A stretch of 64,000 bases of DNA from Burkholderiales bacterium (GTDB lineage: Bacteria > Pseudomonadota > Gammaproteobacteria > Burkholderiales > Burkholderiaceae_C), in the NCBI GenBank assembly GCA_030604135.1, contig JAUVWL010000001.1, forward strand, positions 186,001 through 250,000. The letters run 5' to 3'. The notes below the pieces were generated by a model. That model saw only the letters and a program-made list of their open reading frames with translations, had not been told where the DNA came from and ran no database searches. This document shows, piece after piece, positions 9,113 through 47,203 of this stretch; within the stretch, counting starts at the first letter, position 1; every line of letters starts with the position of its first letter. Position numbers and translations under genes: made by a program.

Positions 9113-10468
9113 ATGACCCATCACGTCATCCTTGGCGCCGGCCCGGCCGGTGTCATTGCGGCCGAAACCATCCGCAAGCACGCCCCGAACGACGCGATCA
9201 CGGTGGTCGGGGATGAAAACGAGTCGCCTTATTCCCGTATGGCCATTCCCTACCTGCTGATCGGCAAGGTCGGCGAGGAGGGCACACACCTGCGGCACAC
9301 ACCGGGGCATTTCGAGGCCCTGGGCATCAAGGTGTTGCGCGGGGTACGCGCCAAGTCGGTTGATGCGCAAGGCCGACGCATCGCACTGAGCGATGGCAAC
9401 ACCCTGTCTTTCGACAAACTGCTCATCGCCACCGGTTCGTCGCCCGCCACACCACCGATTCCCGGCATCGACGGGCCCGGTGTCCACAGCTGCTGGACGC
9501 TGGCCGACGCACGCGCCATTGCCGATCTGGCCAAGCCGGGAGCCAAGGTGTTGCAGATGGGCGCTGGCTTCATCGGCTGCATCATCATGGAGTCCCTGCA
9601 GCAGCGGGGTGTCGAACTGTCCGTGGTGGAAATGGGCGACCGCATGGTGCCCCGCATGATGGGGCCCACCGCCGGCGGCATGATCAAGGGCTGGTGCGAG
9701 GCCAAGGGCGTCAAGGTTTACACCGGCGCCAAGGTCGAGGCCATCGAGCGCGGGCCCGCCAAAGAGCCCGGCTTGCTGGGCAAGATCGCCGAGGTCGTCG
9801 GCATCGGTTCTTCGGAGCCGGCCGGTGGCCCCATGCGCGTGCGCCTGTCGACCGGGCAGACCCTGGAGGCCGACCTGGTCATCAGCGCCACAGGCGTGCG
9901 ACCCAACATCGCCTTTCTGGAGAACTCGGGCATCCGCTGCCTGGTGGGCGTGCTGACCGATGAACACCTGCAGACCAGCGTGCCCGGCATCTACGCCGCT
10001 GGCGACTGCGCAGAGGCCTTCGACAAGGTGTCTGGCAAGACCATCGTCAGCGCCATCCAGCCCAACGCCGCCGAGCAGGCGCGGGTGGCCGCCCTCAACA
10101 TGGTGGGGCAGACGGCCGAACTGCAGGGCGTGACGCAGATCAACGTGCTCGACACCCTTGGCCTGATTTCCAGCAGCTTTGGCAACTGGGAGGGCCTGCC
10201 GGGTGGTCAGCATGTGGAGCTGACCGACGAGGCCAACCACAAGCACCTGAGCCTGCAGTTCAAGGACGACCTCATGGTGGGCTGCAACAGCGTCGGCTGG
10301 ACGGACCACGTGGGCGTGATGCGGGGTCTGGTCGAAGGCCAGGTCAGGCTGGGTGAATGGAAGGACCGCCTGCTGGCCGACCCGACCCGCCTGATGGATG
10401 CCTACCTGGCATCCGCGCAAGGGCAGGGCCACTGGAGCGGCGCGGCCGACGAGCGGCGGCGGGCCTGA
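9113..10468 (+). CDS. aorC: FAD/NAD-dependent oxidoreductase subunit AorC
   Basis: A 451-residue two-dinucleotide-binding flavoprotein. The N-terminal FAD motif is ILGAGPAGVIAAE (about 5-17). The NAD site is LQMGAGFIGCIIME in the middle, and the closing FAD motif is GIYAAGDCAEAF. In AorABC this subunit couples aldehyde oxidation to NAD+ reduction. ATG 9113 has CTGGAG upstream, just past the 9061-9090 hairpin; the open frame upstream runs back into that hairpin and is not used. It is followed by a second terminator-like hairpin before the MoaD-like gene. Confidence 0.88.
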   Translation: MTHHVILGAGPAGVIAAETIRKHAPNDAITVVGDENESPYSRMAIPYLLIGKVGEEGTHLRHTPGHFEALGIKVLRGVRAKSVDAQGRRIALSDGNTLSFDKLLIATGSSPATPPIPGIDGPGVHSCWTLADARAIADLAKPGAKVLQMGAGFIGCIIMESLQQRGVELSVVEMGDRMVPRMMGPTAGGMIKGWCEAKGVKVYTGAKVEAIERGPAKEPGLLGKIAEVVGIGSSEPAGGPMRVRLSTGQTLEADLVISATGVRPNIAFLENSGIRCLVGVLTDEHLQTSVPGIYAAGDCAEAFDKVSGKTIVSAIQPNAAEQARVAALNMVGQTAELQGVTQINVLDTLGLISSSFGNWEGLPGGQHVELTDEANHKHLSLQFKDDLMVGCNSVGWTDHVGVMRGLVEGQVRLGEWKDRLLADPTRLMDAYLASAQGQGHWSGAADERRRA

Positions 10469-10489
10469 ACGTCCGTCCTGTCCTGGCAC

Positions 10490-10531
10490 AGGCCCCTTGC
10501 CCTTTCACAGGCCAGGGGCCTTTACTTTTTT
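10490..10531 (+). terminator. Intrinsic terminator after aorC
   Basis: AGGCCCCT (10490-10497) pairs with AGGGGCCT (10514-10521), followed by TTACTTTTTT. It should end much of the aorABC transcript before the MoaD-like gene, which has its own -10-like element at 10533. Confidence 0.7.
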
Positions 10532-10532
10532 G

Positions 10533-10538
10533 CACAAT
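10533..10538 (+). promoter_or_regulatory. Candidate -10 element of a leaderless MoaD-like gene
   Basis: CACAAT lies seven bases before the ATG at 10546, directly after the terminator T-run. No Shine-Dalgarno sequence is visible and the -35 is weak. Confidence 0.35.
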
Positions 10539-10545
10539 CTGGTCC

Positions 10546-10800
10546 ATGAAGATCACCTTCAAACTGTTTGCCACCCTGACCGATTACCTGCCGGCCGATG
10601 CGCGCCGCAGCAACCAGGTCGAACTCGATGTGGCACCCGACACACCCATCAGCCAGATCATCGAGCCCTTCGGTCTGCCTCCCAAGCTGGTCCATCTGGT
10701 GCTGGTCAACGGCAAGTACGTCGAACCCGATCAGCGCATGAGCGCCACCCTGTCCGAAGGCGATGTGCTGGCCATCTGGCCACCCATTGCCGGCGGCTGA
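10546..10800 (+). CDS. MoaD/ThiS-like small sulfur-carrier protein of the aor cluster
   Basis: An 84-residue ubiquitin-fold protein ending in the GG dipeptide (WPPIAGG). In MoaD this tail is thiocarboxylated to deliver sulfur for molybdopterin. AOR operons often carry their own MoaD paralogue, and in Aromatoleum the equivalent gene follows aorC. It probably serves the W-pterin cofactor of AorB, but no other moa or moe gene is in the window. It lies between a terminator-like hairpin and a small downstream gene. It appears leaderless. Confidence 0.85.
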   Translation: MKITFKLFATLTDYLPADARRSNQVELDVAPDTPISQIIEPFGLPPKLVHLVLVNGKYVEPDQRMSATLSEGDVLAIWPPIAGG

Positions 10801-10809
10801 AAGCGTTCT

Positions 10810-11118
10810 GTGCAGTCGTCCTACCCGGAAGCTTTCGAGCGCGACATGGCCACCAGCGAGGCCGAATGGATCGCGTCCTTGCCGCGCGCCATCGCTGCTG
10901 CACGAGCCAGCTGGCGCTTCGACGGTCCGCGGCAGGCTGTGGTCAGCCTGCCGTGTGGTCACCTGCTCATCAGCTGGGAGCCCTTGCCCGAGCGTCGCAT
11001 CGCTTTGCTGGTGATGAAGCGGCTGCTGGTGAGGTTCCGGTTCGAGGGCGCCGACGAGGGTCAACGTCTGGCGTTCATGAAACCCTTTGATCTCACCCTG
11101 CAACGGGGGGGCGGCTAG
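10810..11118 (+). CDS. Small conserved protein at the end of the aor cluster, function unknown
   Basis: A 102-residue soluble protein read from GTG at 10810, ten bases after the MoaD-like gene. No cysteine cluster or membrane segment is present apart from one PCGH. The C-terminal half is rich in Arg and Phe (RFRFEGADEGQRLAFMKPFDL). I do not recognise the family. Its tight position behind the MoaD-like gene suggests a role in making or assembling the aldehyde oxidoreductase, as with the last gene of other aor clusters, but nothing in the sequence proves that. Confidence 0.6.
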   Translation: MQSSYPEAFERDMATSEAEWIASLPRAIAAARASWRFDGPRQAVVSLPCGHLLISWEPLPERRIALLVMKRLLVRFRFEGADEGQRLAFMKPFDLTLQRGGG

Positions 11119-11176
11119 CCGGTTCTGCGCCTGCGTCCGTGCTCGACAAACTCGCCGACCGGGGGCATCATGCCCC

Positions 11177-11800
11177 ATGGACATGGCAGCCCATATGCTG
11201 TGGGTCGGTGCTGCGCTGGTGGCGCTGTCCCGGCGCACCAAAGTCTCTGCCGGCGCGGCACAACCGTCTGATGCGGCAGCGCCTGGGCTGGGTGTTGACA
11301 GGCGGCTGATCGGGCTGAGCCTCGGTTTTTCGATTCTGCCCGATCTGGTGCATCTGTTGCCAGTGTTTGCCTGGGCGCTGACCGGTGGAGGCTGGGGTGG
11401 GTTGCAGGCCTACGTCTTGGCGCTGCCGGGCCAGGAGCCTGACATGCCCTCATGGGCTGAGCAAGGGGCCCATCATCTGCATTGCCTGTTTCACAGCGGT
11501 CTGGTCCTGTTGGCACTCCACCTGGCGGTGCTGCTTGTCTGGCGATTGGAGGGGGGCAAGAGGTGGCGGCCGGCCGACCTTCCGAGGGGTCTGGCATGGC
11601 CCCTTTGGGCGTGGTGGTCACATGTGCTGATTGACGTATTGACCCACTCGGATGATTTCTATCCCTCGCCTGTGCTGTACCCGCTCACCTACGCCGGCTT
11701 TGACGGAGTGGCTTGGAACCGCCCCGGATTCATGGTGCTGAACTACGTGGCGCTTGGCCTGACCTGGGCCTGGCTGTTCAGACCCTGGCGCAAGCCGTGA
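11177..11800 (+). CDS. Membrane-bound metal-dependent hydrolase-like protein
   Basis: A 207-residue integral membrane protein with about four hydrophobic segments. It has a polar His/Asp signature WWSHVLIDVLTHSDDF and two more histidines (HHLHCLFHS), like the YdjM-type membrane-bound metal-dependent hydrolase family (DUF457-like). The substrate is unknown. I chose ATG 11177 because the hydrophobic segment starts there; the open frame reaches back into the previous gene. It runs convergently into the DUF5368-type gene, nine bases away. The family call is moderate. Confidence 0.55.
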   Translation: MDMAAHMLWVGAALVALSRRTKVSAGAAQPSDAAAPGLGVDRRLIGLSLGFSILPDLVHLLPVFAWALTGGGWGGLQAYVLALPGQEPDMPSWAEQGAHHLHCLFHSGLVLLALHLAVLLVWRLEGGKRWRPADLPRGLAWPLWAWWSHVLIDVLTHSDDFYPSPVLYPLTYAGFDGVAWNRPGFMVLNYVALGLTWAWLFRPWRKP

Positions 11801-11809
11801 CAGTGAAGG

Positions 11810-12169
11810 TCAGGTGTGTGACGCCTGTGCCTTATCGGACAACCATCCCATGATCGCATAAGTCAGGACGGTGGTCGCGACCAAGCCTACACCGTAGACG
11901 AGGGCAATCAGGAACCAGTCCGCCGGGCCACCGGCGTCGGTGAATCCGGACGACGACACCTGAGCCATGATGACCAGCGCCACCACACCGCCCAGCAGGC
12001 CCAGCAACTCAGCCCTCACCAGGCGCCGGGAGACGATGCCCCGCTCACGGACCAGCAGGGCGACAAACGCCGCGACAGCGAGCACAGCGGCCAGCAGCAT
12101 GACCCACAGCATGGGGCCGAGCATTTCCTGGAACACCGCCAGGAACACCATCGGATCGAGTTCTTTCAT
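11810..12169 (-). CDS. DUF5368-type membrane protein downstream of sulfide:quinone reductase
   Basis: A 119-residue protein with three hydrophobic segments (about 15-38, 53-70 and 84-107). The start MKELDPMVFLAVFQEMLGP is typical of a small family I know as DUF5368, function unknown. It lies 26 bases after the sulfide:quinone-reductase-like gene on the same strand and has GGAGAAAAG before its ATG. The two genes therefore form an operon, and it may be a membrane partner of that flavoprotein. The family name is from memory. Confidence 0.7.
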   Translation of the reverse strand: MKELDPMVFLAVFQEMLGPMLWVMLLAAVLAVAAFVALLVRERGIVSRRLVRAELLGLLGGVVALVIMAQVSSSGFTDAGGPADWFLIALVYGVGLVATTVLTYAIMGWLSDKAQASHT

Positions 12170-38112: not shown

Positions 38113-38489
38113 GGGGCTGCACTGGTTTCGACGTGGGTTCGGGCACGCAGCAGGGCATGTCGAGGTTCTGTCACCTCGTAAAACCGCAGAAAAAAACTAA
38201 CTGCAAACGACGAACGTTTCGCACTCGCCGCTTAATCCGGTGAGCCTTGCAACAGCAGGCCGATAGGCTGGGCAAGGGCGGTCGCAAGACTGTCCAGGCT
38301 GCAAGGGAATTTTTATCGGCTGGCTTCGCGTCGGGTACCTTGGCGCGGAGTGAGACCAAAGGGTGCTGGTTGCCTGCGTAGCGTGTCGCTGCGCGACGCG
38401 GGCGGCGAGATCCAAATCAGACGACTACACATGTAGAACTGCGCGAAGAAGGCTTGCGGACGGGGGTTCAAATCCCCCCAGCTCCACCA
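38113..38489 (+). ncRNA. ssrA: Transfer-messenger RNA
   Basis: One-piece tmRNA that rescues stalled ribosomes. The 5' end GGGGCTG pairs with the 3' CAGCTCC before an encoded CCA, including a G-U at the third pair as in tRNA-Ala. The 3' TTCAAAT T-loop lies in CGGGGGTTCAAATCCCCC. The tag frame at 38203-38235 encodes ANDERFALAA and stops with TAA, a typical betaproteobacterial tag. The stretch between tag and 3' end has the usual pseudoknot-forming GC-rich segments. Confidence 0.98.
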
Positions 38490-38500
38490 TACCTCATGAC

Positions 38501-38540
38501 AAAGGCCGCCAGAACTGAATTTCTGGTGGCCTTTTTCTTT
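38501..38540 (+). terminator. Rho-independent terminator of ssrA
   Basis: AAAGGCCGCCAGAA pairs with TTCTGGTGGCCTTT, with one G-U pair, around the loop CTGAAT and is followed by TTCTTT. Confidence 0.93.
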
Positions 38541-38568: not shown

Positions 38569-39972
38569 ATGCCGAGTCTGGACCAATCGGAACCGCTGTC
38601 CGCTTCAAACGAGCTGGCTGACGCAGCAAGTCACCTGGGAGCCCGTGTGGTGGAGTGCTGCCTGGCGGACTTCTCTTCGGTTGCCCGCGGCAAGCGGCTG
38701 ACCACGCAGGAATGGGTCGCTCAAGCGGGCTGCAAGCTGCCTTCGGTCCTGCTGGGCATGACCATCACCGGCGGTTCGCCCAGCCAGGTGTTTGGCCCTC
38801 TGTTGCCGGCCGGCTATGTCGATCTGCAGCTGGTGCCCGACCTCGGGACCCTGGTTGCCCGGCCGGGTCGACCCGGCGAGGCCACGGTGCTCTGCGACCC
38901 TTCAGGTTCCTGGTGGTCGGCGCCTTTGGGGCGAGCGGTTCACGCGAGCGAGTTCTCCCCCCGGGCCGCCTTGAAGCGGGTGGTCCAGGCCTACGAGGCT
39001 CAAGGTCTGCGCGCCACGGTGGCGCCGGAGCTGGAGCTGTTCCTGTTGCAGTGCGAGCCCGATGGCCGCGCCGTCGGCAGTGCCAGGCCCAGCACTTTTT
39101 CTCCCGTGCGGGAGCGGGCCTGCGATGCGTATTCCCTGGAGCGCTGCAGCCATTTCGAACCCTATTTCGACGAGCTTTGGCAGGCGTGCGAGAGCTGGGG
39201 CATTCCGGTTTCGGGCTACCTGCACGAGGCCGCGCTGTCACAGTTCGAGGTGAACTTCCTGCCCGGTGCGCCATTGGAACAGGCGGACGCGGTGTTCCGG
39301 TTCAAGCGCCTGGCCAGGGAAATTGCCGCCCGCCACGGGTTTCTGGCCAGCTTTGCGGCCAAGCCTTTCCTGGACCAGCCGGGCACCGGCATGCACTGGC
39401 ATTTCAGTGTGCAGCGCACCCATTCCGATCGGGACTGGCCGCACCTGTTTGCCACACCCAAGGGTGCACCCAGTCCGCAGCTGATGCATTTCATCGCCGG
39501 TTTGCAGCGGCACACGCCATCGGCCATGGCCCTGTATGCCCCGTTCGACATGTCGTTCGACCGGATTGCATTGAGCGACGCATCGCCCACCCACGCGGAC
39601 TGGGCGCATGATGACCGGCAGGTGGCCTTTCGAATTCCCGCGTCGGGTCCGCAGTCGGTGCGGGTGGAGAACCGGCTCCCGGGAGGTGATGCGAACCCCT
39701 ACCTGACGGTGGCTTCAACACTGGCTTTTGGCCTGTCGGGTCTCAATGCATCGCTGCTTCCGGTGGACAGCAAGCCTGACGAGCTGGTTTTGCCACGACA
39801 GTTGCCCGATGCACTTACAGCGCTGGAGTCCAGCGGGGCTGTTCGCGACATGCTGGGCGCACCCTTGATCGACCTGTTTGTGGCGCTCAAGCGCCACGAG
39901 CACCAGGAGCGCGCAGGGCTGGACCAGCCTCGGTTGGACTGGGACCTGAGGCACCTCATCGAGCTGGCATGA
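38569..39972 (+). CDS. Glutamine synthetase-family ligase (gamma-glutamylamide synthetase type), copy 1
   Basis: A 467-residue GS-fold enzyme, likely a gamma-glutamyl-amine ligase (ATP + glutamate + amine), like PuuA, IpuC or AtdA1, not the housekeeping GlnA. The GS motifs are degenerate but in order: APELELFLL (Glu metal ligands), FEVNFLPG, KPFLDQPGTGMHWHFS and the glutamate-binding VENRLPGGDANPYL. The TTG at 38539 is inside the ssrA terminator, so ATG 38569 is preferred. It overlaps the methyltransferase gene by four bases. A second paralogue lies at 41031-42521. The substrate is unknown. Confidence 0.82.
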   Translation: MPSLDQSEPLSASNELADAASHLGARVVECCLADFSSVARGKRLTTQEWVAQAGCKLPSVLLGMTITGGSPSQVFGPLLPAGYVDLQLVPDLGTLVARPGRPGEATVLCDPSGSWWSAPLGRAVHASEFSPRAALKRVVQAYEAQGLRATVAPELELFLLQCEPDGRAVGSARPSTFSPVRERACDAYSLERCSHFEPYFDELWQACESWGIPVSGYLHEAALSQFEVNFLPGAPLEQADAVFRFKRLAREIAARHGFLASFAAKPFLDQPGTGMHWHFSVQRTHSDRDWPHLFATPKGAPSPQLMHFIAGLQRHTPSAMALYAPFDMSFDRIALSDASPTHADWAHDDRQVAFRIPASGPQSVRVENRLPGGDANPYLTVASTLAFGLSGLNASLLPVDSKPDELVLPRQLPDALTALESSGAVRDMLGAPLIDLFVALKRHEHQERAGLDQPRLDWDLRHLIELA

Positions 39973-40673
39973 AGGGCGTTGGATTGAACGACGCTGGGGT
40001 GGGGCAAGCATCCGTGAGCGAGAGCCATAAAGGTCCACATTGCCCGGTCTGCCTGACACAGGGCAGCAACTGGTTTGCCGCGCCGCGTGCGCGCACCTAC
40101 TGGCGCTGCGTGCACTGCGAGGCCACGTTCATGGATCCTTCGGCCAGGCCTGCCCCGTTGGTCGAAGAGGCCGAGTATCGACTGCATGTCAACGCGGTCG
40201 ATGACCCGGGTTACCGCCGCTTTCTTGCGCGCCTGGCCGAACCCTTGCTGGCGCGACTGCCGCCGGGCAGCGCAGGGCTTGACTTCGGTTGCGGGCCTGG
40301 CCCGGCGCTGGCGGCCATGCTGAGGGAGGCGGGGCACGCCGTGGCCTTGTACGACCCGCTGTTTTTTGATGACCCGCGGGTGCTGTCGCAAAGCTACGAC
40401 TTTGTGTGCTGCAGTGAGGTGGCCGAACACTTCCACCGGCCGGCCGAGGCGTTTGACCGCCTGGACAGGCTGATGCGCCCTGGGGCCTGGCTGGGTGTGA
40501 TGACCGGCTTTCTGGACGACGGGGTCGACTTCGAACGCTGGCACTACCGGCGCGACCCGACCCACGTGGTCTTCTACCGTGAACAGACCTTCCGGGTTCT
40601 GGCGCAGCGCCACGGCTGGTGGTGCGAGTTTCCGGCCAACAACGTGGCCCTGATGCGCAAGCCGGTTGCCTGA
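39969..40673 (+). CDS. Zinc-ribbon class I SAM methyltransferase
   Basis: A 234-residue protein. Cys25, Cys28, Cys47 and Cys50 form a zinc ribbon (CPVC and CVHC). A Rossmann methyltransferase fold follows with motif I LDFGCGPGPALAA (about 104-116) and FVCCSEVAEHF. The start overlaps the GS-like stop (ATGA), so the two are coupled. The acceptor is unknown. In context it could modify the same amine or its glutamyl product. It is convergent with the ferredoxin gene. Confidence 0.75.
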   Translation: MKGVGLNDAGVGQASVSESHKGPHCPVCLTQGSNWFAAPRARTYWRCVHCEATFMDPSARPAPLVEEAEYRLHVNAVDDPGYRRFLARLAEPLLARLPPGSAGLDFGCGPGPALAAMLREAGHAVALYDPLFFDDPRVLSQSYDFVCCSEVAEHFHRPAEAFDRLDRLMRPGAWLGVMTGFLDDGVDFERWHYRRDPTHVVFYREQTFRVLAQRHGWWCEFPANNVALMRKPVA

Positions 40674-40686
40674 GCCGGAGAGGCGG

Positions 40687-41010
40687 TCAGTGCTGGCTGG
40701 CGGGCAGGTGCACCACCATGCCGTCGAGCTCCGGCTTGAGCAAGACCTGGCAGCTCAGACGGCTGCTGGGCTGGACCGGGCTGGCCGCGAAATCGAGCAT
40801 GTCGGCCTCGTCGCGACTCGGTGGCGGCAGTTGCTCTGCCCAGGGGGCGCCGATCATGACATGGCAGGTAGCGCAGGTGAGTGTGCCGCCGCAGTCGGCT
40901 TCGATGCCGGTGATGTTGGCGTCGACGGCGGCCTTCATCAGGCTCTGGTCCGGGGTGGCCCGCAGGGTCTGTTCGCTGCCGTCGGCGGCGATGAATCGGA
41001 TCGAGATCAT
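40687..41010 (-). CDS. [2Fe-2S] ferredoxin
   Basis: A 107-residue plant/adrenodoxin-type ferredoxin with ligands Cys40, Cys46, Cys49 (CGGTLTCATC) and Cys87 (LSCQVL). It lies 20 bases after the second GS-like gene on the same strand, downstream of the Rieske oxygenase. It therefore probably carries electrons to that oxygenase. No ferredoxin reductase gene is nearby, so a shared one must serve. Confidence 0.92.
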   Translation of the reverse strand: MISIRFIAADGSEQTLRATPDQSLMKAAVDANITGIEADCGGTLTCATCHVMIGAPWAEQLPPPSRDEADMLDFAASPVQPSSRLSCQVLLKPELDGMVVHLPASQH

Positions 41011-41030
41011 GGTGCTGTGTTCTGTCAGGT

Positions 41031-42521
41031 TCAGATGCGGCTGAAGTACTCGCGGCGGTCGAATTCGAGCTTGTCTTCGGCTTCGGCATGGCGCGCCGCC
41101 TCGGCACGCTTGATGCGCAGGAAGTGTGCCGTGGCGGCTGGCCCGAGGCCGCTGGCGAGCACGGTGTCAGCCTGCAAGGCATCGAGGGCAGCCCCGAGTG
41201 TGGCAGGGATGTGGGGGTGGCCGGGGTCGTAGGGGTCTTCACTGGCTCCCGGTGGTGTCAGTGCCTTCTCGATGCCGTCCAGGCCGGCGGCAATCTGTGA
41301 GGCCATGTAGAGGTAAGGGTTGGCGGCGGGTTCGCCCAGGCGGTTTTCGATGCGGGTGGCGGGGTCGCCCGGTGCGCCGACGACGCGAAGCATGGCACCT
41401 CGGTTGTCTCGGCCCCAGACCGCTGCCTTGGGCGCCAGGGCGTTGGGCCGGAAGCGTCCGAAGCCGTTGGCGGTGGGTGTGCACAGGCAGGCCAGGGCAT
41501 CGGCATGAGCCAGCAGGCCGGCCAGCCACTGGCAACCCATGTCGGAGAGGGTGTGGCTGGCGGCCAGGCCGTCGCTACCGGGTGCAGGGGCCGGGCGGGC
41601 AAAGACGTTGCTGCCGTCGTCCAGCCGGACCAGCGACTGGTGCAGGTGCCAGCCGCTGGACATGATGTTGGGGAATGGCGGGCGGCACATGAAGGTGGCC
41701 AGGTAGCCGGCCCGCCGCAGCGCCTGGCGAACGCCGTTGCGGAACAGCACCATCTGGTCGGCCGCGGTCAGGGCATCGGTGGCGTCGAACACGGCCTCGA
41801 TCTGGCTGGGGCCGAGTTCGATTTCCAGTGACTGCAGCGGCAGCCCCAGGGCCTGGGCCGTGTCCTGCACGATGCGCATCACCGGTTCGGCCATGTCGGT
41901 CATGGCCTCACCCTGCAGCTGATAGCCGGGGTGGATCATCTCGACGCGTGGGGGTTGGCCGGGCCAGGCCGCCAGCTCGGGGTCGAGCTGGGGGCTGGCG
42001 TCGAGCAGGCGGTAGACGTGGAACTCGACTTCCAGACCCACTTTCAGACCGTGGCCGGTACGGGCCAGTCGGGCCAGCGCATCCTGCAGAACGCGCCGGC
42101 TGTCCATGGGCACCGGGGTTCCGTCCTGGAACCAGGGCTGGCAGCGCAGCCACGCGGTGCCCGGTGACCAGGGCAGCATCAGCAGGCTGTCCGGGTCTGG
42201 CAAGAGCATCAGGTTGGCCGCGCCGGCAAAGCCGGGGATGTCGTCGGTGGCACCGCGCTCGAACACCTTCCAGGCGGTGCGATCGGCATGGTCCTTGAGC
42301 ATCAGGGTGCCGACCATGCCGACCCCTTCGCGCAAGGCGCGTGCGGCTGCGGCGGGCATCAGCGTCTTGCCTCGCAGCAGGCCGTGCGCGTCGCACCAGC
42401 TCAGGCGAACCCGCTCGACGCCGGCGTCTTCCATCTGTCGCAGGGCGCGCTCGCAGGCGGCTTCACGTGCCGGGTCGTGGATGCCGCAGCGGGCGGCAAA
42501 ACTGTCGGTCCAGTCGCTCAC
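41031..42521 (-). CDS. Glutamine synthetase-family ligase, copy 2
   Basis: A 496-residue GS-fold enzyme. Motifs in order are GLEVEFHVYRL, IELGPSQIEAVFD, MSSGWHLHQSL and the NRLGEPAANPYLYMA loop. The IELGPSQ and HLHQSL motifs are closer to classical GS than those of copy 1. The start is GTG 42521 (MSDWTDS), whose GTGA overlaps the Rieske stop by four bases; the open frame upstream lies within the Rieske gene. Being coupled to a Rieske oxygenase suggests gamma-glutamylation of an amine before or after oxidation, as in aniline degradation (AtdA1). This is inference. Confidence 0.82.
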   Translation of the reverse strand: MSDWTDSFAARCGIHDPAREAACERALRQMEDAGVERVRLSWCDAHGLLRGKTLMPAAAARALREGVGMVGTLMLKDHADRTAWKVFERGATDDIPGFAGAANLMLLPDPDSLLMLPWSPGTAWLRCQPWFQDGTPVPMDSRRVLQDALARLARTGHGLKVGLEVEFHVYRLLDASPQLDPELAAWPGQPPRVEMIHPGYQLQGEAMTDMAEPVMRIVQDTAQALGLPLQSLEIELGPSQIEAVFDATDALTAADQMVLFRNGVRQALRRAGYLATFMCRPPFPNIMSSGWHLHQSLVRLDDGSNVFARPAPAPGSDGLAASHTLSDMGCQWLAGLLAHADALACLCTPTANGFGRFRPNALAPKAAVWGRDNRGAMLRVVGAPGDPATRIENRLGEPAANPYLYMASQIAAGLDGIEKALTPPGASEDPYDPGHPHIPATLGAALDALQADTVLASGLGPAATAHFLRIKRAEAARHAEAEDKLEFDRREYFSRI

Positions 42522-43909
42522 GGCTTGACCACCTCTGCGGGTGCTGACGTGGTGCCGCGGTGGGGGTTTTGCCAGGGGGCTCCGGTGCGGCGGCGCTGCA
42601 CGGCGTCTTGCCACCAGCCGGACCAGCCGGCTGCGGGCGCGATGCCGTCGACCGTGTCGGGGCCGGTGATGAGGCTGTACAAGGAGGGGTCGGCAATGCC
42701 GGGCGGGGTCCCGCCGGCGGCCACGGTGTCCATGGCCTGCAGCAGCAGGCGGCGGTTGGCCATGATGACCTTGTCGGTGGTGCCCAGGTGTTCACGGGTG
42801 CGGTCCTGGATGGCGCCCATGCTCTCGCAGGCCCATTGGTCGTGCACGTTGATGTCGTCTTCCCCCATGCCCAGGTAGGTGCGGGACTGCTGTTCTTCGG
42901 GGTTGAACCCCCAGTGGTTGTGCCGGCCGGCCTTGGGGATGTAGCCGGGCAGGGTGACGGCAGGCAGGCGCTGCTTGCGCATGGTGTCCTTGTCCACCGG
43001 GGTGTCGAAGCTGGTGAAGAAGGCGTACCAGTAGTTGTGCGTGTCATCCACCGGCACATGCATCTGGGTGATGGTCATTGTGGGCGACAGTGGGATGACA
43101 AAGGTCTGCGGGAAGACAGCGTTGGTGATGCGCACGTGCATGAGCTCTTCCGTCATGCGCCTGAGCGCGGTGAGGCGGATACCCCAGGGCATGGCTTCGT
43201 GGCTGATGTCGGGCTGTCCGAATTCACGCATGACACGGGTCATGGGCCAGTGTTCGCCATCTTTTTCGCCCAGGCTGGCGCCGCGGAACTGCTTGCCGTA
43301 GCTGTCCTCCAGCGAAGCGTCGTTGAAAAAGCGGTGCAGGTAGGACGCGTGGGCGGGGTCGATGCCGACCTCGAAAGCCTGCAACCAATTGCAGTGCCAC
43401 AGGCCCTTGAAGGCAAAGCTGTGCGAGTCGGGCGCCTCGAAGCAGTCCAGGGCAGGCAGCGGTGGCGGGGTGGATCCCTCCGGCCCCAGCCAGGCAAACA
43501 GCACGCCGGCCCGGGTCTGCAGCGGGTAGCTGCGCTGACGGATGCGCTGGCACAGGGTGCTGCCGGTCGGTTCGGCCGGGGTCTCGGTGCACTGGCCGCT
43601 GATGTCGAACTTCCAGCCGTGAAAAGGGCAGCGCAGGCCATCGCCCTCGTTGCGGCCGTAGGCCAGATCGGCGCCGCGGTGCGGGCAGTCGCGGTCGAGC
43701 AGACCGAACTGGCCCTCGGCGTCCTTGAACAGCACCAGGTCCTGACCCAGCAGTCGGACCGCCTTCACAGGGCGGGTGGCCATGGCCGGGTCGAAGCGTG
43801 GGTCGAACTCGTCAAGCAGGGCCACGGGTTGCCAGTACCGGCGCAGCAGTTCACCTCCGGGTGTACCCGGTCCGACCCGGGTGAGTTTGTCGTTCTGTTC
43901 GGCTTTCAT
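42518..43909 (-). CDS. Rieske non-haem iron oxygenase, alpha subunit
   Basis: A 463-residue ring-hydroxylating/demethylating oxygenase of the phthalate-dioxygenase type. The Rieske cluster ligands are Cys75-His77 (CPHRGADL) and Cys94-His97 (CPFHGWKF). The mononuclear iron site is EVGIDPAHASYLH, with Asp184, His187 and His192. No beta subunit is encoded, so it is probably a homotrimer. ATG 43909 precedes the usual N-terminus (GGELLRRYWQPVAL). It is first in an operon with the GS-like ligase and ferredoxin, divergent from a GntR regulator. The substrate is unknown. Confidence 0.9.
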   Translation of the reverse strand: MKAEQNDKLTRVGPGTPGGELLRRYWQPVALLDEFDPRFDPAMATRPVKAVRLLGQDLVLFKDAEGQFGLLDRDCPHRGADLAYGRNEGDGLRCPFHGWKFDISGQCTETPAEPTGSTLCQRIRQRSYPLQTRAGVLFAWLGPEGSTPPPLPALDCFEAPDSHSFAFKGLWHCNWLQAFEVGIDPAHASYLHRFFNDASLEDSYGKQFRGASLGEKDGEHWPMTRVMREFGQPDISHEAMPWGIRLTALRRMTEELMHVRITNAVFPQTFVIPLSPTMTITQMHVPVDDTHNYWYAFFTSFDTPVDKDTMRKQRLPAVTLPGYIPKAGRHNHWGFNPEEQQSRTYLGMGEDDINVHDQWACESMGAIQDRTREHLGTTDKVIMANRRLLLQAMDTVAAGGTPPGIADPSLYSLITGPDTVDGIAPAAGWSGWWQDAVQRRRTGAPWQNPHRGTTSAPAEVVKP

Positions 43910-43936: not shown

Positions 43937-43952
43937 AAACGGTATACCGTTT
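43937..43952. promoter_or_regulatory. Perfect 16-bp palindromic operator of the GntR regulator
   Basis: AAACGGTATACCGTTT is exactly self-complementary and centred between two divergent genes, 27 bases from the Rieske start and 26 from the GntR start. GTATAC-centred palindromes are typical of FCD-type GntR regulators. It probably controls both directions. Confidence 0.75.
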
Positions 43953-43965
43953 TGAAGTTTCAGTG

Positions 43966-43971
43966 TACAGT
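43966..43971 (+). promoter_or_regulatory. -10 element of a possibly leaderless GntR gene
   Basis: TACAGT lies seven bases before the ATG at 43979, next to the palindromic operator, so a bound repressor would block the promoter. Confidence 0.4.
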
Positions 43972-43978
43972 CGATGGC

Positions 43979-44698
43979 ATGAGCTTGCAAGAATCCGTGT
44001 TGATGCAGTTGCGTGACCTCATCCTCAGCGGTGCGTTTCCGCCCGGGCAGCACCTGGCCGAGCAACAGCTGGCCCAGCGCCTGGGGGCTTCACGCACGCC
44101 GGTGCGGGCGGCACTGGTGCAGCTCGAACAGGAAGGGCTGCTGGAGGCCACCGAGACCGGCAAGCTGCAGGTGCGGCCCCACACCGCGCAGGAGGTCTGT
44201 GATGCCATTGCGGTGCGCGGTCACCTGGAGGGCATGGCGGCACGGCTGGTGGCCGAGCACGGCGTGTCACGGGCACTGCAGGGCGACTTGCAGGCCTGTC
44301 TGGACGAGGGCGACCGGCTGCTGTCCGCCCAGGCGCTGGACATCGACAGCTACGCCGACTATGCGCGCATGAACGACCGCTTCCACGCGCTCATCCTTCA
44401 GGCTTGCGGCAACCGCGCGCTGCAGCGGGCCGTGGCCCAGAACGACCGGCTGCCGTTTGCGCCGGCGTCGGCCATGCTGCCGATGCAGGGCACACTGGAC
44501 AAGGACCTCGACTGGATGCGCTATGCGCACCGCCAGCACCACATGCTGGTTGACGCCCTGCGCCGGGGGGAAGGCGCTCGCGCCCAGGCCCTGGCCACCG
44601 AGCACACCGAGGTGGCCCAGATGAACATGCGCCTGGCGCTGGAGCGGCGCAGCGAGTCACAGGCGGTGTTGCCGGCCATCCGGCTGGTGGTGGGGTAA
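43979..44698 (+). CDS. GntR-family regulator with FCD domain
   Basis: A 239-residue regulator. The N-terminal winged helix (about 5-70) has LAQRLGASRTPVRAALVQLEQEGLL. The all-helical FCD ligand domain (about 80-220) has the metal-binding pattern with ARMNDRFHALILQACGN. The FCD domain usually binds a carboxylate. It is divergent from the Rieske operon around a perfect palindrome and 42 bases ahead of the phosphorylase gene. It may control both groups. The start at 43979 is supported by family N-termini; a TTG at 43952 is rejected because it falls in the operator. Confidence 0.9.
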   Translation: MSLQESVLMQLRDLILSGAFPPGQHLAEQQLAQRLGASRTPVRAALVQLEQEGLLEATETGKLQVRPHTAQEVCDAIAVRGHLEGMAARLVAEHGVSRALQGDLQACLDEGDRLLSAQALDIDSYADYARMNDRFHALILQACGNRALQRAVAQNDRLPFAPASAMLPMQGTLDKDLDWMRYAHRQHHMLVDALRRGEGARAQALATEHTEVAQMNMRLALERRSESQAVLPAIRLVVG

Positions 44699-44740: not shown

Positions 44741-46306
44741 ATGTCCAGCGAACACACCAACCATGCCACCGGCACGTTGCGCCTGCGCCGGGTGGGCATC
44801 GATACCTACCACGAGAACGTCGCCTACCTGCACCGCGACTGCGCCATCTACCGGGCCGAGGGCTTTCAGGCCCTGTCCAAGGTGGAAGTGCGGGCCAATG
44901 GCCGGCGCATCCTGGCCACGCTGAATGTGGTGGACGACGAGCGCATCGTCGGCTGCGATGAGCTGGGTGTGTCTGAAGATGCGTTTGCCCAGTTGCAGGT
45001 GCCCGACGGGCACCTGGCCACGGTCTCGCAGGCCGAGCCCCCGGAGTCGATTCCGGCCCTGTTTCGCAAAATCAATGGCGAGCGCCTGGGCCGCGAGGAT
45101 TTTCGGGCCATCGTTCGCGACATCGCAGACCTGCGCTATTCCAAGATCGAATTGACCGCCTTTGTGGTGGCCTGCAACCGCAGCGAACTGGACCGGGAGG
45201 AGGTCTACTTCCTGACCGAGGCCATGGTGGCATCGGGCCGTCAGCTGGACTGGCACGAACCGCTGGTGGTGGACAAGCACTGCATCGGAGGCATTCCGGG
45301 CAACCGCACGTCGATGCTGGTGGTGCCCATCGTGGCAGCCTATGGCCTGGTGTTTCCAAAGACTTCGTCGCGGGCCATCACCTCGCCGGCCGGTACGGCC
45401 GACACCATGGAGGTGCTGGCCAATGTCGAACTGCCGTTCGACCACCTGACCGACATCGTGCGGGCCCACCGGGGCTGTCTGGCCTGGGGGGGCACGGCCG
45501 ACCTGTCGCCGGCCGATGACGTGCTGATCTCGGTCGAGCGCCCCCTGTCCATCGACTCGCCGGGACAGATGGTGGCCTCCATCCTGTCCAAGAAGATCGC
45601 GGCCGGTGCGACCCATCTGGTGCTGGACATCCCGATCGGGCCGACCGCCAAGGTGCGCTCCATGCCCGAGGCCCAACGCCTGCGCCGCCTGTTCGAGTAT
45701 GTGGCGCAGCGTATGCACCTGTCGCTGGACGTGGTGATCACCGATGGCCGCCAGCCCATCGGGCGCGGTATCGGCCCCATGCTGGAGGCGCGCGACGTGA
45801 TGCAGGTGCTGGAAAACGACCCGGCGGCGCCGGATGACCTGCGGCAGAAATCGCTGCGCCTGGCCGGCCGCATCATTGAATGCAGCCCGGATGTGCGGGG
45901 TGGCGACGGCTTTCATATCGCGCGCGACATCCTGGACTCGGGTCGGGCGCTGGCCCGCATGCGGGCCATCATCGAGGCCCAGGGCGGGCGCGGCTTCAAT
46001 CACCAGCATCCCCCTTTGGGGGCGCTGAGCTTCGATGTGGCGGCGGATGCCGACGGCACCGTCATCGGCATCGACAACCTGCAGGTGGCGCAGATTGCCC
46101 GCCTGGCGGGAGCGCCCAAGGTCAAGGCCGCCGGGGTCGACCTGCTGCGCAAGCTGGGCGAGACGGTGCGGCGGGGCGAGCCCCTGTATCGGGTGCACGC
46201 CGCCTACCCGTCGGACCTGGAATTTGCGCGCCAGGCCTGTTTGCGCCACAGCGGCTATCGCATCGGGTCACCTGAGCAGATGCCGCAGGTGTTTGTGGAG
46301 TTCTGA
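44741..46306 (+). CDS. AMP phosphorylase / thymidine phosphorylase-family protein
   Basis: A 521-residue enzyme of the nucleoside phosphorylase II family. An N-terminal extension (about 1-85) precedes the domain with the phosphate-binding [12 protein letters not shown] and [18 protein letters not shown]. Length and N-terminal domain match archaeal AMP phosphorylase (NMP + Pi to ribose-1,5-bisphosphate + base) rather than the shorter bacterial DeoA. It is followed after three bases by a PRPP-synthetase paralogue. The two likely work in one nucleotide-ribose pathway. Which nucleotide it uses is not known. Confidence 0.85.
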
Positions 46307-46309
46307 TTC

Positions 46310-47203
46310 ATGCATCCATCTCGTGAGACCGGTGGTGCGCTGCTGTACGTCCCCGAGGAGCAGGCCATTGCCACGACGGTGGCCCGTTCGGCCGGATTGT
46401 CGGCGCTGGCCATCGAACGCCACCGCTTCCCGGACGGCGAGCTGCGCCTGTGCCTGCCGCCTGCGTTGCCGGCCCGGGTGGTGGTCTGGCGTGGTCTGCA
46501 GCAGCCGAACGAAAAGCTGGTCGAACTGTTGCTGGTGGCGCAGACGGCGCGGGATCTGGGCGCCCGAGAGCTGACCCTGGTGGCCCCTTACCTGGGCTAC
46601 ATGCGCCAGGACATGCCCTTCCGGCCGGGCGAGGCGGTGAGCCAGCGCATTGTCGGGCGCTTTCTGGCTGGGTTGTTCGACGCGGTGATCACGGTCGACC
46701 CCCATTTGCATCGCGTAGCCACCCTGCAGGAGGCGGTGCCGGTGGCGCGCGCCGTGGTGCTCAGTGGTGCGCCACTGCTGGCCGAGCACATCGCGCGTGA
46801 GCGCGGACCGGTGGTGCTGCTGGGTCCTGACGAAGAGTCCCTGCAATGGGTGGCCAGCGCGGCGCGTCCGCATGGCTGGGCGCATGCGGTCTGTCACAAG
46901 ACCCGCCATGGCGACCGGGAGGTCGACATCGTGCTGCCCGAGATGGCGCTGGCCGGCGAGGCGGTGGTCCTGATCGATGACGTGGCCAGTTCCGGTCAGA
47001 CCCTGGTGCGGGCTGCCGAGCTGCTCAAATCCGCTGGCGCCCGCTCGGTCGACGTGGCGGTGACCCATGCCCTGCTGGACGAGGCCGCGCTGGCGCGGAT
47101 ACACCAGGCCGGGGCGGGCGCGTTCTGGAGCACCGATGCCGTGGCACACCCGACCAACGCGGTGAGCATTGCAGCCGCTGTTGCGGGGGCATTGCGGGGG
47201 TGA
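46310..47203 (+). CDS. Ribose-phosphate pyrophosphokinase paralogue
   Basis: A 297-residue member of the PRPP synthetase family. The N-terminal region has FPDGELRLCLPP and APYLGYMRQDMPFRPGE. The C-terminal PRPP loop is VVLIDDVASSGQTLVRAA (about 221-238). It is shorter and more divergent than the housekeeping Prs (about 315 residues), and the flexible catalytic loop reads KTRHGDREV. It is coupled to the AMP-phosphorylase-like gene. It may make PRPP from ribose phosphates released by the partner, or use ribose-1,5-bisphosphate in another way; this is inference. Confidence 0.82.
   Translation: MHPSRETGGALLYVPEEQAIATTVARSAGLSALAIERHRFPDGELRLCLPPALPARVVVWRGLQQPNEKLVELLLVAQTARDLGARELTLVAPYLGYMRQDMPFRPGEAVSQRIVGRFLAGLFDAVITVDPHLHRVATLQEAVPVARAVVLSGAPLLAEHIARERGPVVLLGPDEESLQWVASAARPHGWAHAVCHKTRHGDREVDIVLPEMALAGEAVVLIDDVASSGQTLVRAAELLKSAGARSVDVAVTHALLDEAALARIHQAGAGAFWSTDAVAHPTNAVSIAAAVAGALRG

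Follow-up and report, generated by a model that had tools for sequence, protein, structure and literature searches.

A probable sad-type operon of Hydrogenophaga, proposed to glutamylate and oxidize an acid-bearing aromatic amine

Introduction

Two short gene units converge on one another within a 64,000-nucleotide stretch (the window, meaning the whole stretch analyzed) of the 4.0 Mb genome of a Burkholderiales bacterium (GenBank assembly GCA_030604135.1, contig JAUVWL010000001.1, positions 186,001 to 250,000), one encoding a Rieske oxygenase, a ligase of the glutamine synthetase (GS) family and a ferredoxin, the other a second GS-like ligase and a methyltransferase. We propose, with a probability of about three in four, that the first of these, on the minus strand, is together with a divergent GntR-type regulator a Hydrogenophaga sad-type operon, the products of which would glutamylate and then oxidize an acid-bearing aromatic amine. 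In Hydrogenophaga intermedia PBC, the sad operon (4-aminobenzenesulfonate 3,4-dioxygenase) comprises genes for a dioxygenase (sadA), a glutamine synthetase (sadB) and a ferredoxin, and it is fairly conserved across the Hydrogenophaga genomes then reported (PMC5632844). An earlier annotation made from the DNA letters (the original prediction) had called the genes in the window an undescribed amine pathway, a description overtaken by this already published operon.

Sulfanilate is man-made, and the natural substrate of sad was left open in 2013 (PMC3704786) and again in 2017, when the original substrate was thought likely to be a natural compound close to 4-aminobenzenesulfonate (PMC5632844). The new lead presented here is that the genes neighboring the operon in relatives give a concrete candidate, 4-aminobenzoate. 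If this is true, a near-core Hydrogenophaga gene set, present in 41 of 44 good genomes, consumes a folate precursor, and this bears on the life of these bacteria with partners.

A conserved oxygenase, ligase and ferredoxin unit

The genes of both units, the regulator and its putative operator are as follows.

42518-43909, minus strand: SadA-like Rieske oxygenase alpha subunit of 463 amino acids (Pfam Rieske and LigXa_C), a putative terminal dioxygenase
41031-42521, minus strand: ligase 2 (GS2), a SadB-like GS-family ligase of 496 amino acids (Gln-synt_C, GTG start), a putative gamma-glutamyl-arylamine synthetase
40687-41010, minus strand: [2Fe-2S] ferredoxin (Pfam Fer2), which would pass electrons to the Rieske oxygenase
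43979-44698, plus strand: GntR/FCD-family regulator (Pfam GntR and FCD), divergent from the Rieske gene
43939-43971, minus strand: putative operator pair ACTGTACACTG-N12-GGTATACCGT in the GntR-Rieske intergenic region
38569-39972, plus strand: ligase 1 (GS1), GS-like, probably of a PuuA-like branch (Gln-synt_C)
39969-40673, plus strand: methyltransferase adjoining ligase 1 (Pfam Methyltransf_23)

An open-reading-frame and Pfam check of the window found all five enzyme and ferredoxin genes at the coordinates predicted for them, and confirmed the predicted four-base overlaps, GTGA between the Rieske and ligase 2 genes and ATGA between the ligase 1 and methyltransferase genes. The ferredoxin gene begins 20 nt past the end of ligase 2, and a gap of 13 nt separates it from the convergent methyltransferase gene. 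Of the genes accepted as real between 36 and 48 kb, none encodes an oxygenase beta subunit, an amidotransferase or a GAT-like amidase; the search did not extend to the rest of the genome.

The minus-strand unit (termed the module below) thus has the gene set of sad, that is, a Rieske gene, a directly adjoining GS-like gene and a ferredoxin gene, and the first four named matches of the Rieske protein, among the matches listed, are from Hydrogenophaga. It shares with the PBC operon the three gene types, the genus and the conservation throughout that genus. A 2012 cloning paper by Gan reportedly dealt with sadABD in Escherichia coli, sadD being said to encode the ferredoxin and sadC the reductase. 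The naming is not uniform, as sadC is labelled ferredoxin in a legend of PMC5632844. The same article lists the accessions WP_009515254.1, WP_009515256.1 and WP_009515258.1 for SadA, SadB and SadD. The position of a glutamine-synthase gene immediately beside that of the dioxygenase, an arrangement shared with strain PBC, was remarked on in 2013, when the natural substrate was also asked about (PMC3704786). Strain PBC differs in having in addition pcaH2G2, pcaB2 and 4SLH for 4-sulfocatechol, which are found only in H. intermedia strains (PMC5632844). A Rieske-ligase pair (56 and 42% identity) is also present on plasmid pSA3 of Novosphingobium resinovorum SA1, another sulfanilate degrader (PMC5632844), and genes for a ferredoxin and an FAD oxidoreductase follow about 4 kb further on.

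Conservation was assessed in 150 genomes of the family and 67 of the genus, 44 of the latter being good. A Rieske protein of at least 59% identity is encoded in 33 of the 150 family genomes, the next best among the matches listed reaching at most 39%, and the same 33 genomes carry ligase 2 at 45% or above, with the two genes on separate contigs in one of them (G009). Within the genus, the Rieske gene is present in 53 of the 67 genomes and in 41 of the 44 good ones. Gene neighborhoods were compared at 89 other module loci (33 from the family, 8 from the genus, 35 from the order or phylum and 13 from plasmids), 83 of which are referred to as called because their Rieske gene passed our own gene-calling script and a 50% identity threshold. 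The six loci without a counted Rieske gene are L121 (taken for ligase only), L142 (at the 50% threshold) and L139, L248, L249 and L250 (mis-called). The script overlooks some genes in the fetched loci, the neighbor labels are BLAST matches to representatives that were not individually scanned, and loci of the same lineage are not independent. The ligase 2 gene is on the same strand and within 300 bp of the Rieske gene in 72 of the 83 called loci, a pairing far above chance, while 43 of the 83 (and 8/8 genus loci) have a ferredoxin gene of the module type, and 30 a relative of the GntR regulator gene, no more than 10 kb away.

The region between the GntR and Rieske genes contains ACTGTACACTG followed, after 12 nt, by GG(G/T)ATACCGT in 14 of 14 aligned sequences (the window and 13 picked loci, the position having been checked for these 14). 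The exact pattern occurs with constant spacing in 44 of 289 loci, including 8 of 33 from the family, 7 of 8 from the genus and 16 of the 80 named loci listed, the remaining positive loci being shorter segments of regions already counted; it is in none of the 35 order or phylum loci and none of the 13 plasmid loci. The window itself has the exact pair once, at 43939-43971.

Placement of the ligase and the oxygenase

Both ligases score far under the NCBIfam cut-offs for GlnA and gamma-glutamylputrescine synthetase, ligase 1 reaching 129.9 on the latter model (GGputSyn) against a cut-off of 650. Aligned with E. coli GlnA, both retain E129, E131, E212, E220, H269, R321, E357 and R359 and both lack D50 and E327, which are V and L, respectively, in ligase 2. 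The residue roles and GlnA numbering used here are those that we take to be standard, with E327 presumably the flap residue. Ligase 2 hence bears the mark of the GoaS class, in which the ammonia-site residues are lost and the metal and glutamate site is kept. Glutamyl-organic-amine synthetases are described as having lost the catalytic Asp50 and the flap glutamate, printed as Glu357 (PMC11335346); in the present alignment the flap position corresponds to E327 and, unlike in that numbering, the residue numbered E357 is kept in NpaA1 too. Because two ammonia-site residues are lost, both ligases probably act on organic amines.

The best match of ligase 2 in the PDB is NpaA1, the 1-naphthylamine glutamylase (8wwu, E 5.6e-100), to which it is 37% identical, compared with 41% to the ligases of the clusters L278 and L280. 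In a 91-row tree it falls in a 67-row group (fork support 83) beside NpaA1 and two arylamine-cluster ligases, and the 70-row group formed by all of these has a support of 99 in the Shimodaira-Hasegawa-like approximate likelihood ratio test (SH-aLRT), which upholds the predicted kinship of ligase 2 to the aniline-type ligases. The aniline and 1-naphthylamine systems (AtdA1-A5, NpaA1-A5) likewise couple a GS-like ligase, of a neighboring branch, to a Rieske dioxygenase, and TdnQ/DcaQ are presumably further members of the aniline system. The aniline-type clusters L278-L280 have an amidotransferase-type gene and both alpha and beta oxygenase subunits, whereas the window module has neither beta subunit nor amidase, and the original prediction was therefore right that this is not the aniline cluster. 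An IpuC-type isopropylamine pathway was set aside on the position of ligase 2 beside the arylamine-cluster ligases in the tree, in which IpuC was not included.

An AlphaFold model of the Rieske protein has a mean predicted local distance difference test (pLDDT) score of 80.5, with low values at 198-208, 349-351, 367-377 and the C-terminus. Its first Foldseek match is isophthalate dioxygenase (IPDO; 9ina, E 1.5e-35, TM score by query length 0.77, 32% identity), next to which come a Cupriavidus Rieske oxygenase (7fhr) and then phthalate dioxygenase (PDO; 7fjl_A, E 3.3e-29, TM score 0.72, 29% identity). Ranks 1-16 are held by isophthalate and phthalate dioxygenases, below which carbazole dioxygenase, SxtT and demethylases follow. 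Residues C75, H77, C94, H97, D184, H187 and H192 are invariant across the 40 aligned rows, 39 of them distinct, and are shared by the two relatives of solved structure. IPDO and PDO (9ina, 7fjl) have the fold and the acid-binding arginine in common with the window protein, and we know of no ligase partner for either. The arginines R234 of IPDO and R244 of PDO share one place and bind a carboxylate, while H257 of IPDO binds the second carboxylate (PMC12445078). The window protein has R260 in this arginine column, which is R in every one of the 40 rows (39 of them distinct), and the second anchor, H257 of IPDO, is replaced by Gln in the window Rieske clade (40 of 40 rows). The second arginine of PDO, R207, has no conserved counterpart, its column being R in 19 of 40 rows. 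Since one acid anchor is retained and an amide side chain has taken the place of the second, an acid-bearing aryl amide would fit as the substrate.

N- or O-demethylation is disfavored, in spite of the Pfam LigXa_C domain, as NdmA and guaiacol O-demethylase appear only from rank 38 (E ∼3e-16), and the 50 fold matches listed include no DdmC entry. In the predicted course of glutamylation followed by oxidation or demethylation, the first two steps are the likely chemistry and the last is not, the nearest folds being the isophthalate and phthalate dioxygenases.

As for the supply of electrons, a search of the window genome for a SadC-like reductase gave one match at E ≤1e-40, on another contig (C47:6440-7642, 43% identity); its gene belongs to a P450-ferredoxin cluster (L284) close to a second LigA/LigB pair, and this enzyme could serve the module. 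The L284 cluster itself (C47, 6416-12466) brings together a P450, a ferredoxin, an FAD reductase and the second LigA/LigB pair, and visual inspection showed sets like it in L285, L286 and L287.

Gene neighbors in relatives and the native substrate

The native role that we consider foremost, to which we give slightly less than even odds, is that of a 4-aminobenzoate 3,4-dioxygenase system, in which gamma-glutamylated 4-aminobenzoate would be dioxygenated to protocatechuate. It is suggested by genes for 4-hydroxylaminobenzoate lyase, PcaB/PcaDC and a PcaK-like transporter next to the module in relatives, together with the invariant acid-binding arginine. The operon would then be a patchy and broadly spread aerobic route in Burkholderiales and Alphaproteobacteria, borrowed for sulfanilate by PBC-type strains.

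The lyase (PnbB, PF16155) is encoded near the module in 5 of the 13 plasmid loci, or 3 of 11 by a stricter count, the loci not being independent; L137, L138 and L140 were identified by annotation and L275 and L276 by BLAST, and the family name was taken from the L138 copy. All five have a LysR-type gene, four a nitroreductase gene (not L275) and four a PcaK-like transporter gene (not L137), the L138 transporter scoring over the cut-off for aromatic-acid symporters (TIGR00895) and under that for PcaK. Among the called plasmid loci, an FAD reductase gene accompanies the module in 8 of 11 and a Peptidase C26 gene, by BLAST, in 4 of 11, and in L135 a class-I amidotransferase is annotated beside it. 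In the phylum sample, 4 of 21 genomes with the module encode PnbB, compared with 3 of the 377 other genomes (Fisher p 1.8e-4, without correction for relatedness). In these four genomes the PnbB gene never comes within 10 kb of the module, and PnbB is absent from the window genome.

Two further arrangements bear on the product. In L244, pcaB and a bifunctional pcaDC gene, each over its NCBIfam cut-off, are divergent from the Rieske gene; the TRAP genes there are 53-74% identical to those near modules of the window's family, and the ligase forms a pair next to a group that is mainly of that family (tree support 94). In L142, a distant relative (Rieske identity 46%), pcaB, pcaD, pcaG and pcaH lie past the ligase on the opposite strand. 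PcaC decarboxylates a carboxyl group, and these neighbors would therefore indicate protocatechuate rather than 4-sulfocatechol. The window genome encodes LigA, LigB and LigK, all over their cut-offs and on one contig, and could use protocatechuate. LigA is present in 62 of 67 genus genomes and is thus not discriminating; it only permits the pathway. In the titles and abstract beginnings that were searched, 4-aminobenzoate is not named as a sad substrate, a search outside which most subscription papers fall, so that absence from print is not shown, and the searched passages of PMC10754744 have nothing on the operon.

Proposed reaction sequence and opposing evidence

The gene content, the conservation, the placement in families and the loss of ammonia-site residues are observed, whereas the order of reactions is what we infer from the aniline and 1-naphthylamine systems and the published sad operon. 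On this basis the following sequence is proposed. Ligase 2 would attach glutamate, at the expense of ATP, to the amino group of an acid-bearing aromatic amine. Electrons would pass from a reductase encoded elsewhere to the ferredoxin and on to the Rieske oxygenase, which would add O2 across the amine-bearing carbon and its neighbor, and the product would shed its nitrogen to leave a catechol for ring cleavage. The native substrate would be an aminobenzoate, most likely, to judge from the neighbors in relatives, 4-aminobenzoate giving protocatechuate.

A number of observations weigh against this proposal. The window module has no reductase gene in addition to having no amidase. The presumed orthology to the PBC operon draws on gene order, genus and conservation. 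The Rieske gene is missing from 14 of the 67 genus genomes, 11 of which are less than 90% complete and three of which are not. The residues were mapped onto IPDO and PDO by sequence alignment, and the structural model has stretches of low pLDDT. Two Hydrogenophaga strains need external 4-aminobenzoate and others are predicted to do so (PMC5632844), which is odd for organisms that would consume it. PcaB is encoded within 10 kb in 1 of the 83 called loci and is rarer there than a gentisate-dioxygenase-type gene, which is within 10 kb in 11 (8 of 32 in the family and 3 of 32 in the order or phylum). Moreover, SadB has been hypothesized, from gene deletion and transposon work with strain PBC, to remove the amine after hydroxylation (PMC3704786). 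That the ligase strips nitrogen after the oxygenase has hydroxylated the ring, with no prior glutamylation, is nevertheless improbable, given that NpaA1 and AtdA1 glutamylate the amine before its oxidation and the dioxygenase cannot act on the free amine (PMC11335346), and that ligase 2 keeps the residues of the metal and glutamate site and has lost two of the ammonia site.

The gentisate-type neighbors raise a further alternative, in which the module would act on another aminobenzoate, such as an aminosalicylate or 3-aminobenzoate, the product of which would enter a gentisate-type ring cleavage. L240 and L241 each have a gentisate-dioxygenase-like cupin gene that is on the strand of the Rieske gene and overlaps its start, the L240 cupin scoring 288.6 on TIGR02272, under the cut-off of 442.1. 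Loci of the window's family have a MarR gene and genes for 3-hydroxybenzoate 6-monooxygenase and gentisate 1,2-dioxygenase nearby (one representative per enzyme was over its NCBIfam cut-off), the dioxygenase being found in 8 and an FAA hydrolase in 12 of the 32 called family loci, and FAA-hydrolase and TRAP genes lie within 10 kb in 5 of 8 genus loci. A match to a gentisate-type dioxygenase (E ≤0.001) is present in 58 of 67 genus genomes, three of them over the cut-off, and the window genome has a gentisate-type cluster on another contig, with a dioxygenase under the TIGR02272 cut-off. We regard this alternative as unlikely, though less so than the preceding one. Vicinal dioxygenation at the amine carbon of a simple aminobenzoate would not, on chemical grounds, yield gentisate, and the gentisate genes may be co-inherited chromosomal neighbors, the comparison having covered genomes that have the module.

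The L240 and L241 loci, from two genomes of another Burkholderiales family, have the cupin, Rieske and ligase genes in one overlapping run (∼9594-11883), which may be a variant with a different substrate.

The adjoining ligase and methyltransferase unit

The original prediction placed both ligases, the oxygenase, the ferredoxin and the methyltransferase in one amine pathway. What speaks for it is that all five genes are adjacent at 38569-43909, the methyltransferase and ferredoxin genes converging to within 13 nt of each other. Co-occurrence does not bear this out. Ligase 1 is found at 47% identity or above in 6 of the 150 family genomes, two of which, the window genome and G061, are among the 33 that have the module, and in 5 of the 67 genus genomes, as opposed to 53 for the Rieske gene. 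At 50% identity or above, it is beside the module in none of the 89 other module loci. In two close relatives, G212 (Rieske identity 95%) and G176 (88%), moaE comes after the ferredoxin gene in place of the ligase 1 unit. The genome G198 (Rieske identity 93%), which is outside the 89 loci, has ligase 1 at gph-ubiG-ompA-gyrA, and the contig (L238) ends just after it, in the first part of a matching methyltransferase gene. Its Rieske gene is on another contig, so that both units are present and the window's arrangement is possible there.

The two ligases are also separated by phylogeny. Ligase 1 falls in an 18-row group with E. coli PuuA (EcPuuA) and PuuA-like rows (SH-aLRT 98), a join flagged as possibly false since EcPuuA has a long branch, and ligase 2 groups with NpaA1. 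In addition, no operator site within two mismatches lies upstream of ligase 1; a two-mismatch match to the first operator element occurs inside the ligase 1 gene at 39405. A single pathway of all five genes is thus very improbable, more so than either of the alternatives above.

Ligase 1 and the methyltransferase travel together, as the G198 ligase 1 gene also precedes the start of a matching methyltransferase gene, and they do not travel with the sad-type module. The module (40687-43909, minus strand) and the ligase 1-methyltransferase unit (38569-40673, plus strand) are unrelated, and, with ligase 1 absent from the other module loci and moaE following the ferredoxin gene in G212 and G176, their side-by-side arrangement is most simply read as a local rearrangement. 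The second unit is probably a separate one for the gamma-glutamylation of another (poly)amine. Ligase 1 is 31% identical to EcPuuA and shares with it the loss of the same two ammonia-site residues, and in G011 a ligase 1 relative lies beside DAO-type, PuuC-like and 4-aminobutyrate-transaminase genes. The window differs from the PuuA pathway in that ligase 1 has no neighboring gene for an oxidase, an aldehyde dehydrogenase or PuuD (36-48 kb). The methyltransferase has, by eye, a CxxC...CxxC stretch at its N-terminus. In the genome G153 (L229), the ligase 1 relative has a P450-ferredoxin-reductase set on one side and SelO, MOSC and gentisate-type genes on the other.

Flanking genes and a second module copy

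The two converging units sit between gyrA-ompA-ubiG-gph-ssrA (gyrA identified by eye) and a gene pair for a nucleoside phosphorylase and phosphoribosyl pyrophosphate (PRPP) synthetase. On the ligase 1 side, the tmRNA gene (ssrA) is at 38113-38489, 79 nt upstream of ligase 1, with a terminator-like hairpin at 38501-38534 between them. ssrA is a frequent integration site, and there is no integrase among the assigned genes near the tmRNA gene of the window. On the other side, beyond the GntR gene, an archaeal-type thymidine/AMP phosphorylase (NF003338, over the cut-off) and the PRPP synthetase are encoded at 44741-47203, and this pair flanks the module in 12 of the 13 module loci drawn, L234 being the exception. 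L234 comes from the genus genome G186, which has two copies of the module, on contigs C64 and C55 (L234). The usual copy has a Rieske identity of 83% and the other one of 61%, the latter with FAD reductase and Liv-type transporter genes and resembling the plasmid copy of Polaromonas JS666.

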